Below are positions 4,472 to 51,808 of a stretch of 61,010 nt of DNA, one piece after another. The position numbers and the translations under genes are program-made. Position 1 is the stretch's first letter, and the number at the start of each line of letters is the position of its first letter. The DNA is from Verrucomicrobiota bacterium (lineage in GTDB: Bacteria > Verrucomicrobiota > Verrucomicrobiia > Chthoniobacterales > UBA10450): positions 1-61,010 of the forward strand of contig QHPD01000112.1 of the NCBI GenBank assembly GCA_003218975.1, read 5' to 3'. The notes below the pieces were generated by a model, which saw only the letters and a list, made by a program, of their open reading frames with translations, was not told where the DNA came from and did not search any database.

Positions 4472-4629
4472 GGGGAGCGCACGCGTCTCGCGTGCTGGCG
4501 AGCGCGTGCTCCCGATCGCGAACTTTTCTTGAACTCGCTTCTGTTAAGTGCGGCCGGAATACAAACGAAAGATTGTTTCGGCGCGACGTCGAAACCAGCA
4601 CGCGAGGCGCGTGCGCTCTCCAATCCGGA
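4472..4629. mobile_element. MITE-like deleted derivative of the RAYT element
   Basis: A 158-bp element with inverted ends. The left end reads GGGGAGCGCACGCG then TCTCGCGTGCTGGC; the right end is close to its reverse complement (CCAGCACGCG then AGGCGCGTGCGCTCTCC). Both ends also match the two ends of the 622-bp element inside recG (50197-50818), including the inner marks ACTTTTC-TGAA on the left and GAAAG-TTGTTTCGG plus CCAATCCGGA on the right. The transposase part is missing. This is the pattern of a non-autonomous element mobilised by a RAYT transposase. It lies between the two gspE-type genes without breaking either. Confidence 0.75.
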
Positions 4630-45298: not shown

Positions 45299-46087
45299 AT
45301 GCTCCGCATCGGCTGCGTCAAATATCTTAATGCCCGTCCGCTTATTCGAGGGTGGCTAGGCCCTGTGGAATTCGATCATCCGTCGACGCTCGGCAAACGA
45401 CTGGCGAACGGTGAGCTCGATGTCGCGCTTGTTTCCAGTTTCGAATTCTTGCGCAACCCGATTTATCGAATCGTTGACGACGTTTCCATTTCGTCGGTCG
45501 GATCGGTTTACAGCGTGGTTGTCGCGCATCGCGGCGACATTTCTAAGATCGAAGAGATCGAACTTGATCCTGCATCGAAAACTGCAGTCAATCTTCTGCG
45601 TTGCCTACTCGCCGAGCTGGGATTCAATTGGCGTTTAATCCGAGGTGTTCTGGGGAGCACAGGCTGCCAGCCTGTCGTGTCCGGCAGCCTGCCGGACACG
45701 ACAGCGTGGCTTCTCATTGGCGATCAAGCCATTCGTTTCCGTCAGAAACACGTCGGTGAATTTGATTTCTGGGATCTCGGCGAACAATGGCGGAAACTTG
45801 TTGATCTTCCGTTCGTTTACGCGCTTTGGCTTGTTCGCCCTGAAGTTATTGATCCAAAACAAATCGCGGAGCGCCTGCGTGTCTTGCGCGATGAAAACCT
45901 GACCAATCTCGACGAGTTAATTGCGGCCGAAAAAGAATCCGATCACCAATTCTGTTCCCGCTATTACCGCAAACATCTTCAATTCAGCCTTGGAGAAAAA
46001 GAAAAGGAAGGTCTGCGAACGTTCGCGCACCTCTGCGCAAAGCACGGTCTACTTCCGAAGCGCGATCTCGCGTTCGATCTCGTGTAG
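45299..46087 (+). CDS. mqnA: chorismate dehydratase with in-frame REP insertion
   Basis: 262 aa MqnA/MqnD-fold protein: MLRIGCVKYLNARPLIRGW, LDVALVSSFEFLRNPIYRIV, SVGSVYSVVVAHRG, WLLIGDQAIRFR, FVYALWLVRPEVI. It dehydrates chorismate to 3-enolpyruvyl-benzoate, the first futalosine-pathway step. Between LIRGVL and AWLLIGD lies GSTGCQPVVSGSLPDTT, encoded by a REP palindrome at 45652-45704. The loop lies between conserved strands, so activity may survive. The gene is clearly still open and placed after mqnE. Confidence 0.9.
   Translation: MLRIGCVKYLNARPLIRGWLGPVEFDHPSTLGKRLANGELDVALVSSFEFLRNPIYRIVDDVSISSVGSVYSVVVAHRGDISKIEEIELDPASKTAVNLLRCLLAELGFNWRLIRGVLGSTGCQPVVSGSLPDTTAWLLIGDQAIRFRQKHVGEFDFWDLGEQWRKLVDLPFVYALWLVRPEVIDPKQIAERLRVLRDENLTNLDELIAAEKESDHQFCSRYYRKHLQFSLGEKEKEGLRTFAHLCAKHGLLPKRDLAFDLV
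45652..45704. repeat. GGGGAGC-headed REP inside mqnA
   Basis: GGGGAGCACAGGCTGCCAGC CTGTCG is followed by GTGTCCGGCAGCCTGCCGG ACAC. Two nested hairpins result (AGGCTG-CAGCCT, GTGTCCGGCAG-CTGCCGGACAC). It translates in frame as GSTGCQPVVSGSLPDT. A related unit lies before recG (49035-49083). Confidence 0.7.
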
Positions 46088-49034: not shown

Positions 49035-49083
49035 CTTCGCGGCAAGCTGCCGCGAACAACAGGCTGGCAGCCTGCGCTCCCCA
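49035..49083. repeat. REP-type hairpins just upstream of recG
   Basis: CTTCGCGGCAAGCTGCCGCG and AACAGGCTGGCAGCCTGCGC then TCCCC. The second, read on the minus strand, starts GGGGAGCGCAGGCTGCCAGC, the same head as in mqnA. It ends two bases before the recG start codon, so it lies where a ribosome site should be. Confidence 0.6.
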
Positions 49084-49084
49084 G

Positions 49085-51808
49085 ATGATCGGGATTTCGC
49101 AGTCGCTCGAAGACATCGCGTGGATCCCCCGACCGCGTCTGCTGGCGCTGAGACGGCTCGGTATCGGTACCGTGGAGGATTTGCTTACGCATTTTCCGCG
49201 CCGTCATGAGGATCGAACCGAGTTCCCGCATTTTCCACGCGAAGAAAGCGACGTTCCAATTTGTCTTTGCGGTGAAGTGATTAAAACGTCGCTGCGCCGT
49301 TTTGGCGGCTGGAAGAAGATCTTCGAAGCAACACTGCAAGAATCGCAGCCGAACGCGCTGAGTGAACCACTGGTGTGCCGTTGGTTCAATCTGCATTACG
49401 TGCAGAAGATGATCGCAACCGGGCAACGCCTGGTTGTGTTTGGCAGGCCGCGCCTGCGGGGCAAGAGAATTTGCATGGATCATCCGGAGTTCGAGGTCAT
49501 CGAGAATGATAAAGAAATTTCGATCCATTTTCGGCGCATCACACCGATTTATCCAGCGACGGAAGGTCTTTCACAGCGCGTCTTGCGCAGCATTATTTAC
49601 CGAGCGTTGAATGAAATTTCAGGCGCAGTATTGGAAACAATTGCGCCGAGGGGTTTGGTTCATGGTACGCGGCGTGACGCGATCCGCGCGATCCATTTTC
49701 CGGAAAGCTGGGAAGCGCGTGATACTGCTCGGGAGCATCTGGTGCTCTCGGAATTTTTTGCGATGCAAATGCTGATCGCATCGCGACGCTTCGACGCATC
49801 CATCCGCGTCGGGTACGCGCACTGTGGAAATGGCGCGTTGCTCGACAAATTTCTTAAGGCGCTACCGTTCGAGTTAACCAGCGCGCAGTCCAAAGTGATT
49901 ACGGAAATTCGGCGCGATCTCGCGGCACGCCAACCGATGAACCGTTTGTTGCAGGGAGACGTTGGCTCGGGAAAAACGGTCGTTGCCATAGCAGCGATGC
50001 TTCTTGCGATTGAAGCTGGATATCAGGCCGCGTTTATGGCGCCCACGCAAATTCTGGCGGAACAGCATTATGATGTGCTGCGGCGCTGGCTCGAGCCGCT
50101 GGGGTTGTGCATCGCGCTGCGAACGGCCGCGCGTCAGGAAGACAACGCACCATTGCCTCTATTCGTACTCAGCAAAACGCAACGCGCAAAGATTCCGGGG
50201 AGCACGCGCGTCTCGCGTGTTGGCGACGGCGTCGCGCCGTCGCGGACTTTTCCTGAAACACAATCAGGCGAGGGGGCTGCGTATTCTCGCCGTCGGCTAC
50301 CACATTTCGAAAAACCTTGGGCAATTTATGCGGTGAAGATCAGCACGAAGTCGCGGCGTTGTTTGTCACCAATCACGCGCACCATCGTTCTCGACGCGCT
50401 CCGACATTTTCATAACAAACGCTACGAATTGTTCGCGGCGTGCGTGATGCCTGATCATGTGCATTTTCTTATCCAGCCATGGCCGAAAGAAAGTGATGAC
50501 GCGGGAAACGCAACATTCTGGCCGCTGAGCGAGCTGATCCACTCGATAAAATCATTTTCGGCTCACGAAATTAACGAGATCGACAAAAAGAAGGGGGCAG
50601 TTTGGGAACGCGAAAGATTTGATCGTTATGTGCGATCGGATCGCGATCTCCAGGAGAAGTTCCATTACATTCTTCGAAATCCATGGGATTCTGGAGTGGC
50701 ACAGCAGAATGAGGATTATCCGTGGGTCTGGACGCAGGATGACGAGCGCCGCGAGGAAAGCTTGTTTCGGGGCGACGCCGAAATCAGCACGCGGGACGCG
50801 AGCGCTACCCAATCCGGAGCGTCGTTCGGGACGAACGACCCACAAATCGTCGTCGGCACGCATGCGTTGCTGTACGAGAATGTTTCGTTCTCCAATCTCG
50901 GGCTCGTTGTTATCGACGAGCAGCATAAGTTCGGTGTTGCTCAACGCGCCCGATTAACCACCCGCGAGCCGGCGCCTGACGTCCTCGTGATGACCGCCAC
51001 GCCAATCCCGCGCACACTGACAATGACCATCTACGGCGATCTTGATGTTTCCGTTATCGATGAGATGCCGCGCAACCGCGGGAAAATAATTACCGCCGTG
51101 CACGAAACGTCTAAGCTCGGCGAAGTCCTCAGTTTTTTGCGAGCACAACTGGAAGCGGGTCGCCAGCTCTACGTGATTTATCCGCTAATCGATGAAACCG
51201 AAAAACTGGACGTGAAAGCGGCGTCGGTGGAGTACGAGTTGTGGCGGGAGCGATTGCACCCGTATCGCTGCGAATTACTTCACGGCCGGATTCCGGCGCC
51301 GGAAAAACAGGAAATCATGGAACGGTTTCGACGCGGCGAGACAAATGCTTTGATCAGCACTACGGTAATCGAAGTCGGTGTCGATGTCCCCAACGCGACG
51401 GTAATGCTGGTCGAAAACGCCGAGCGTTTCGGGTTGGCGCAACTCCATCAGCTTCGCGGCCGGATAGGTCGCGGTGGGCACAAGTCGTACTGCATTTTGT
51501 TAACATCCGACACTTCTAAGGAAACATCAGGAAAGCTCACTGTATTGGAAAAAACAAGCAACGGTTTCGAAGTGGCGGAGGCTGATTGGGATTTACGCGG
51601 GCCGGGCGATTTGCTGGGCACAGCGCAAAGCGGCTTGCCAGTGCTGAAGATCGGCGACTTAAAAACCGACGCACATTTGATGCGACGAGCGCGCGCGGCG
51701 GCGGTGTCGATCTTCGCGGCGGATCCGCGTCTAGAACTGCCTGAGAATCAACGTTTCCGGCGTTTAATTGTCGAACAACAGGGACGAACTTTTTCCAACG
51801 TTAGCTGA
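49085..51808 (+). CDS. recG: ATP-dependent DNA helicase RecG interrupted in frame by a RAYT element
   Basis: 907 aa. Remodels stalled forks and Holliday junctions. The wedge/OB region is N-terminal (LLTHFPRRHEDRTEF, RLVVFGRPRLRG). Walker A is LLQGDVGSGKTVVA (about 290-300) and motif Ia-type APTQILAEQHYDVL. The DExH box VVIDEQHKFGVAQR, motif III MTATPIPRTL, motif V STTVIEVGVDVPNATVM and motif VI QLRGRIGRGGHKS all remain. Between residues ~372 and 578 lies an in-frame RAYT transposase. Without it the protein would be ~700 aa, the normal RecG size. The insert sits in the loop after LPLF and before IVVGTHALL. Whether the fusion is active is unknown. It overlaps degP by one base. Confidence 0.93.
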   Translation: MIGISQSLEDIAWIPRPRLLALRRLGIGTVEDLLTHFPRRHEDRTEFPHFPREESDVPICLCGEVIKTSLRRFGGWKKIFEATLQESQPNALSEPLVCRWFNLHYVQKMIATGQRLVVFGRPRLRGKRICMDHPEFEVIENDKEISIHFRRITPIYPATEGLSQRVLRSIIYRALNEISGAVLETIAPRGLVHGTRRDAIRAIHFPESWEARDTAREHLVLSEFFAMQMLIASRRFDASIRVGYAHCGNGALLDKFLKALPFELTSAQSKVITEIRRDLAARQPMNRLLQGDVGSGKTVVAIAAMLLAIEAGYQAAFMAPTQILAEQHYDVLRRWLEPLGLCIALRTAARQEDNAPLPLFVLSKTQRAKIPGSTRVSRVGDGVAPSRTFPETQSGEGAAYSRRRLPHFEKPWAIYAVKISTKSRRCLSPITRTIVLDALRHFHNKRYELFAACVMPDHVHFLIQPWPKESDDAGNATFWPLSELIHSIKSFSAHEINEIDKKKGAVWERERFDRYVRSDRDLQEKFHYILRNPWDSGVAQQNEDYPWVWTQDDERREESLFRGDAEISTRDASATQSGASFGTNDPQIVVGTHALLYENVSFSNLGLVVIDEQHKFGVAQRARLTTREPAPDVLVMTATPIPRTLTMTIYGDLDVSVIDEMPRNRGKIITAVHETSKLGEVLSFLRAQLEAGRQLYVIYPLIDETEKLDVKAASVEYELWRERLHPYRCELLHGRIPAPEKQEIMERFRRGETNALISTTVIEVGVDVPNATVMLVENAERFGLAQLHQLRGRIGRGGHKSYCILLTSDTSKETSGKLTVLEKTSNGFEVAEADWDLRGPGDLLGTAQSGLPVLKIGDLKTDAHLMRRARAAAVSIFAADPRLELPENQRFRRLIVEQQGRTFSNVS
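50197..50818 (+). mobile_element. complete REP-associated tyrosine transposase (RAYT) element in recG
   Basis: 622 bp. The left end has GGGGAGCACGCGCGTCTCGC GTG then a second hairpin GCGACGGC-GTC-GCGCCGTCGC; the right end has GAAAGCTTGTTTCGG, CAGCACGCGGG and CCAATCCGGA. Both ends match the 158-bp element at 4472-4629. The coding part has Y1/RAYT marks: RLPHFEKPWAIYAVKI, MPDHVHFLIQP with the HUH pair at recG residues 458-460, VWERERFDRYVRSDRDL, and FHYILRNPWDSGV. Tyr515 or Tyr528 is the likely nucleophile. The only in-frame Met inside precedes PDHVH, so it can be made complete only as part of RecG or from a GTG/TTG start. It keeps the recG frame. Confidence 0.85.

Follow-up and report, generated by a model that had tools for sequence, protein, structure and literature searches.

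The window, by which we mean the whole stretch of 61,010 nucleotides analysed here, is positions 1-61,010 of contig QHPD01000112.1 from the assembly GCA_003218975.1 of a Verrucomicrobiota bacterium (Chthoniobacterales, UBA10450). Its plus strand encodes RecG in a frame of 907 aa that is stop-free throughout (49085-51808) and that carries an insert. The N-terminal part of recG (49085..50196, plus strand) comprises the wedge, the helicase motifs as far as the loop that follows ALRTAARQEDNAPLPLF and a short linker (NF008168/TIGR00643, PF17191, PF00270), and the C-terminal part (50811..51808, plus strand) begins at the loop ahead of IVVGTHALL and ends with the stop (NF008168, PF00271, PF19833). 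Either side of the insert is matched by RecG profiles, namely NF008168 (775 bits), wedge, DEAD, Helicase_C and dom3_C, and the wedge, both helicase halves and domain 3 that define a RecG are all present. These family matches agree with the original prediction that both RecG halves are intact and the 907 codons unbroken. The gene is the single RecG copy of the source genome; a second copy was searched for and none found, and the other RecG relative encoded there (37% identity, contig C104) is probably Mfd. Insert-free RecG orthologues of the genus have frames of mostly 686-777 aa with a short loop, in line with the expectation that removal of the insert restores a normal RecG size, and comparison of homologues also reveals other genomes with orthologous fusions. 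The RecG/insert junction peptides of the 907-aa fusion lie around AKIPGSTR and SATQSGASFGTNDPQ.

The insert extends from 50197 to 50810 (614 nt, residues ~372-575 of the RecG frame). Its ends were set by the REP pattern and not by a perfect empty-site pair; exact boundaries from empty sites were dropped because the RecG loop is too variable between species. The range first proposed, 50197-50818, has the correct left end but reaches 8 nt too far on the right, as the element stops at 50810. The left REP end (50197..50245, plus strand) is of the GTAG type, here GGAG, and is translated as GSTRVSRVGDGVAPSR; its predicted fold has two hairpins (-20.8 kcal/mol, z -3.8 versus shuffles). The right REP end (50763..50810, minus strand), reading GGGTAGCGCTCGCGTCCCGCGTG..., is inverted and translated as part of AEISTRDASATQ. 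It is more decayed (z -0.8), yet has one mismatch to the REP consensus. The flanking REPs of the window copy are thus in the inverted orientation typical of RAYTs, with a decayed right end. Genome-wide, 63 REP copies were found versus 0 for the reversed control pattern, and they often form inverted pairs (REPINs) with spans of 147-149 bp, the kind of REP/REPIN population that accompanies a RAYT. One REPIN, an inverted REP pair of 148 nt, is located elsewhere in the window (4473-4620), and no long frame covers its span.

Between the REP ends lies a RAYT (Y1 HUH transposase) domain (50285..50722, plus strand, residues 401-546). It is matched by Y1_Tnp PF01797 (E 1e-5, above its cut-off) and, at residues 407-547, by NF047646 REP_Tyr_transpos (E 1.4e-21) with 76.9 bits, slightly below the curated cut-off of 80. 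Of 90 RAYT domains, 88-90 retain each of the catalytic residues, namely the HUH pair H458-V-H460 (50456..50464, plus strand; 88/90 and 90/90) and Y528 to N532 of YILRN(P) (50666..50680, plus strand; 88/90 and 90/90). The window domain has the HUH pair, tyrosine and asparagine of a RAYT, as had been stated for the motifs PDHVHF and YILRNP. Y528 lines up with Y115, the nucleophile of the solved REP transposase of E. coli, 4ER8. Because of this alignment Y528 is the predicted nucleophile of the window RAYT, which answers a question left by the original prediction. For the RAYT domain alone, an AlphaFold model (pLDDT 87) most closely matches 4ER8 among PDB structures (TM 0.65), and IS200/IS605 enzymes come next (2f4f and 2xma among the top). 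When all 907 residues are modelled, RecG and RAYT both fold (RAYT pLDDT about 80). Residues 355-409 and 555-582, including the REP-encoded peptides, look like linkers because their pLDDT is <50, and we predict that the REP-encoded peptides act as flexible connectors on either side of a HUH domain that folds on its own. The PF01797 and NF047646 matches together with the inverted REPs bear out the description of a complete RAYT element with palindromic ends in frame in recG.

Reading frame and host range

No stop interrupts the element from the left REP end through the right one, and its frame is continuous with that of the host. Between residues 357 and 417 of the window ORF there is no in-frame ATG, GTG or TTG; the first possible start past residue 357 is a GTG at 417, within the RAYT domain, and the first ATG is inside the HUH motif itself. 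For want of a start in this interval, a complete window transposase requires an upstream start and can be made only within RecG. The window copy is not a free-standing gene with its own start and stop, which is a habit of known RAYTs and lies outside the catalytic definition. The codon phase of the left end is constant in 72 of 76 elements. A strict rule of startless elements would be too strong, since 7 of these 76 left arms contain an ATG, 23 a GTG and 31 a TTG, and the GTG and TTG codons make internal starts possible in some copies. A built-in length of a multiple of three was likewise rejected: REPINs span 147, 148 or 149 nt, the clear in-frame case (DnaE2-like) being one of 147, so the frame looks selected and not built in. 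This REPIN lies in another contig of the source genome (L290 3743-3889, contig C75) in frame within a 676-aa frame, which by eye looks like DnaE2; REPs in dnaE2 have been published and show the same habit. A second REPIN is found ~2.2 kb away, inside a 420-aa frame.

RecG is not the only host. The source genome contains two further RAYTs of the same kind in one MetH frame and one RAYT of a second subfamily (B) in CarB. We searched 35 genomes of the genus and 213 of the order. At a threshold of E 1e-34 or better, 81 of the 90 matches to the window's subfamily (A) in the order lie within frames of at least 400 aa, compared with 1 of 69 for Y1 transposases of other subfamilies among the 35 genomes of the genus; the contrast is large, with the reservation that the samples differ, some frames end at contig ends and the comparison is unmatched. 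Free-standing copies (frame <400 aa) make up 37 of the 110 subfamily-B matches, and the in-frame hosts of subfamily B are CarB, Sua5 and RarA. Judged by their flanks, the host loci comprise about 36 long RecG fusions, 28 in AlaRS, 18 in CarB, 11 in MetH, 7 in ThrRS, 2 in Sua5 and 1 in RarA; in some cases two loci are the opposite ends of a single copy that is broken or gapped. All host names other than RecG are presumptive, as we assigned them by recognising the sequences and not by family search. Insertion sites are fixed, with one each in RecG, ThrRS and CarB and two each in AlaRS and MetH, all five being hosts of subfamily A, and the REP linkers around the RAYT vary freely in length across copies. 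Two CarB copies (L080 and L196) belong to subfamily A at a site where most copies are subfamily B, and the two subfamilies therefore share one site. No conserved target sequence is obvious at the junctions, where we see by eye only a pyrimidine/purine trend.

About half of the RecGs of the genus are without the insert. Named records with the family are MAGs of Chthoniobacterales and of other Verrucomicrobiota, among them Limisphaerales, Prosthecobacter, Pedosphaera and Opitutaceae. Across the phylum the family is uncommon: in an even sample, 10 of 384 genomes carry it, all in frames of 730-1316 aa. Two further associations were observed. One record has a subfamily-A RAYT in frame in a DNA methyltransferase-like gene (L179 2165-4522) and also a subfamily-B RAYT. 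In four genomes another RAYT subfamily occurs in frames of 386-399 aa (L099-L102), with a cytochrome c-like domain attached C-terminally.

Selection and turnover at the RecG loop

The RAYTs inside RecG have a median dN/dS of 0.134 (Nei-Gojobori NG86, 33 pairs), which indicates purifying selection, and folding constraint within an important enzyme could explain part of this low value. Host frames are retained in two fusions with an altered catalytic residue, a RecG fusion with Y528 to H (L026) and an AlaRS fusion with H458 to Y (L078). In several close pairs the RAYT dS is similar to that of the host, as expected for shared inheritance, and the RAYT tree clusters by host gene, requiring 17 changes versus 46 with shuffled labels. 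On the RecG tree, obtained by a quick tree search, two RAYT lineages alternate among sister species. In one pair of species (L138/L208) RecG is 90% identical at the nucleotide level and the RAYT 57.5%, and in another (L136/L197) the C-part of RecG is 96% identical and the RAYT 60%. In L208, ~20 nt of an older REP remain as a scar ahead of the newer element, and the RecG of genome G018 has a REPIN without a RAYT, in frame, at the same loop. Taken together, the comparisons show that copies at one host gene both persist across species divergence under purifying selection and are gained, lost and exchanged at the same site.

One RecG (L038, genome G008) appears mosaic: one of the two RAYT lineages supplies the left end and the domain, and the other the right REP, which suggests recombination between elements at the RecG loop. 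In relatives, the other RAYT lineage found in RecG is flanked by a second REP family (GGGGAGCGCAGGCTGCCAGCCTG). In the window this REP family is present directly ahead of the recG start codon (49060-49082, minus strand), with a further copy at 45652-45674.

Interpretation of the insert

The insert is probably one of a family of mobile REP/RAYT elements in Verrucomicrobiota whose members are translated in frame as passengers of housekeeping enzymes, in which they occupy permissive loops. Such an element would move via single-stranded DNA, with recognition of the REP hairpins and cleavage by Y528, like TnpA_REP and the IS200/IS605 enzymes. We infer that only landings in frame and in tolerant loops of important enzymes survive. 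A surviving element would be expressed via the host gene, here as part of RecG, and would be protected from loss, since in most cases a deletion would also disrupt an enzyme that matters to the cell. That the same few sites are used again and again may reflect targeting or a scarcity of tolerant loops. A more far-reaching and tentative proposal, which we consider possible rather than likely, is that these HUH transposases form a new homing-like class: they would home to fixed housekeeping loops, be expressed only as domains of the enzymes and displace one another, intein-like in these respects and free of splicing.

The original prediction proposed a RecG helicase with a nicking domain. In general terms, the hosts would have domesticated the HUH domain and use it, for example for REP or fork processing. 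RecG acts on branched DNA, which would fit such a role, as would long retention, low dN/dS and intact catalytic residues. However, the same domain is found in AlaRS, ThrRS, MetH and CarB, which have no DNA-related role in common, and the RecG-specific helicase-nuclease design was demoted once these hosts, Sua5 and RarA had been found. Moreover, the insert-free half of the genus, the exchange at the loop between sister species, where separate RAYT lineages replace one another, and the loss of a catalytic residue in some fusions all speak against it. Many hosts, patchy presence and exchange favour a mobile element in permissive loops over a fusion for RecG function, and we regard domestication as unlikely. 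Slightly less probable still is a frozen neutral passenger, an old transposase landing in frame that is functionless and cannot be deleted without damage to the enzyme. Patchy presence and the fact that most deletions break the frame would agree with this, whereas a median dN/dS of 0.13, near-invariant catalytic residues during residence and the exchange of lineages at the site would not. Removal of the insert by protein or RNA splicing before the enzyme works is very improbable: the intein-like position and the roughly 200-300 extra residues carried by important enzymes would suit it, but neither the Pfam matches nor the 25 NCBIfam matches listed include a Hint self-splicing or other intein family, an Rfam scan of the window gave no match of any kind, introns included, and the REP linkers vary freely in length. 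An intein or intron was rejected on these grounds. Assembly chimera or contamination, which might be suspected since the draft genome comprises 165 contigs and the named relatives found are all MAGs, has a negligible probability and is refuted for practical purposes, as the insert and flanking RecG sequence, junctions included, recur near-identically in a second assembly (G006/AV79) and orthologous RecG-RAYT fusions exist in tens of genomes from several sequencing projects. The in-frame RAYT element within recG is real.

The literature treats RAYTs as domesticated transposases whose function is unknown and leaves the persistence of REP populations as an open question; one model assumes that a REPIN copied into a gene destroys that gene (PMC8049555). 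In-frame elements of the kind proposed here would offer another route of persistence, in enzymes that the cell must keep and with the transposase under selection during residence. If confirmed, mobile passengers in permissive loops would explain how a mobile enzyme is expressed and retained at low cost to the host, provide a naturally occurring inventory of insertion-tolerant loops in AlaRS, ThrRS, MetH, CarB and RecG, and make RAYT function testable through removal of one domain from one enzyme.

Relation to known systems

With RAYT/TnpA_REP proteins, such as that of E. coli (4ER8), the element shares the fold with HUH and a single tyrosine, the YxxxN motif, the inverted-order REP ends and a REP/REPIN population in the genome (PMC2817692, PMC6006769). 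Known RAYTs are described as single-copy, vertically inherited genes (PMC8049555), whereas the present subfamily is translated in frame in housekeeping enzymes and the window copy is without its own start and stop. A survey of the family excluded proteins of unexpectedly great length, taking them for fusions or annotation errors (PMC6006769); some of these may be real. IS200/IS605 enzymes have the same Y1 HUH fold, but REP ends, a RAYT-type sequence and the in-frame habit set the element apart. Comparable in habit are the intragenic GTAG/CGTC REPs of Di Nocera et al. (2013), with GTAG cases most numerous in the verrucomicrobium Opitutus terrae; as there, GTAG REPs are translated within DNA repair and tRNA synthetase genes (PMC3733652). 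That account describes only REPs and their dimers or clusters, of about 20-82 aa, and its section on them makes no mention of a transposase gene inside a host frame. It also cites the Rickettsia palindromic elements (RPE), in-frame palindromes in protein genes whose products are likely functional (PMC3733652). The present element is similar in being palindromic and in frame inside a protein gene of a likely functional host. To our knowledge RPEs are small and do not code for any mobility enzyme, and the present element, which encodes a RAYT, is not an RPE. Inteins with homing endonucleases are likewise mobile nucleases; they occupy fixed in-frame sites within important enzymes, are patchy in occurrence and are exchanged. 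The embedded mobile nuclease, fixed sites, patchy presence and exchange at the site are common to both, but the present element has no splicing domain, carries an HUH single-strand enzyme in place of a homing endonuclease and is flanked by REPs. A literature search over open-licence papers found no published description of RAYTs inside host proteins, in agreement with the original view that a RecG-HUH fusion is undescribed. In-frame REPs without a transposase were already known.
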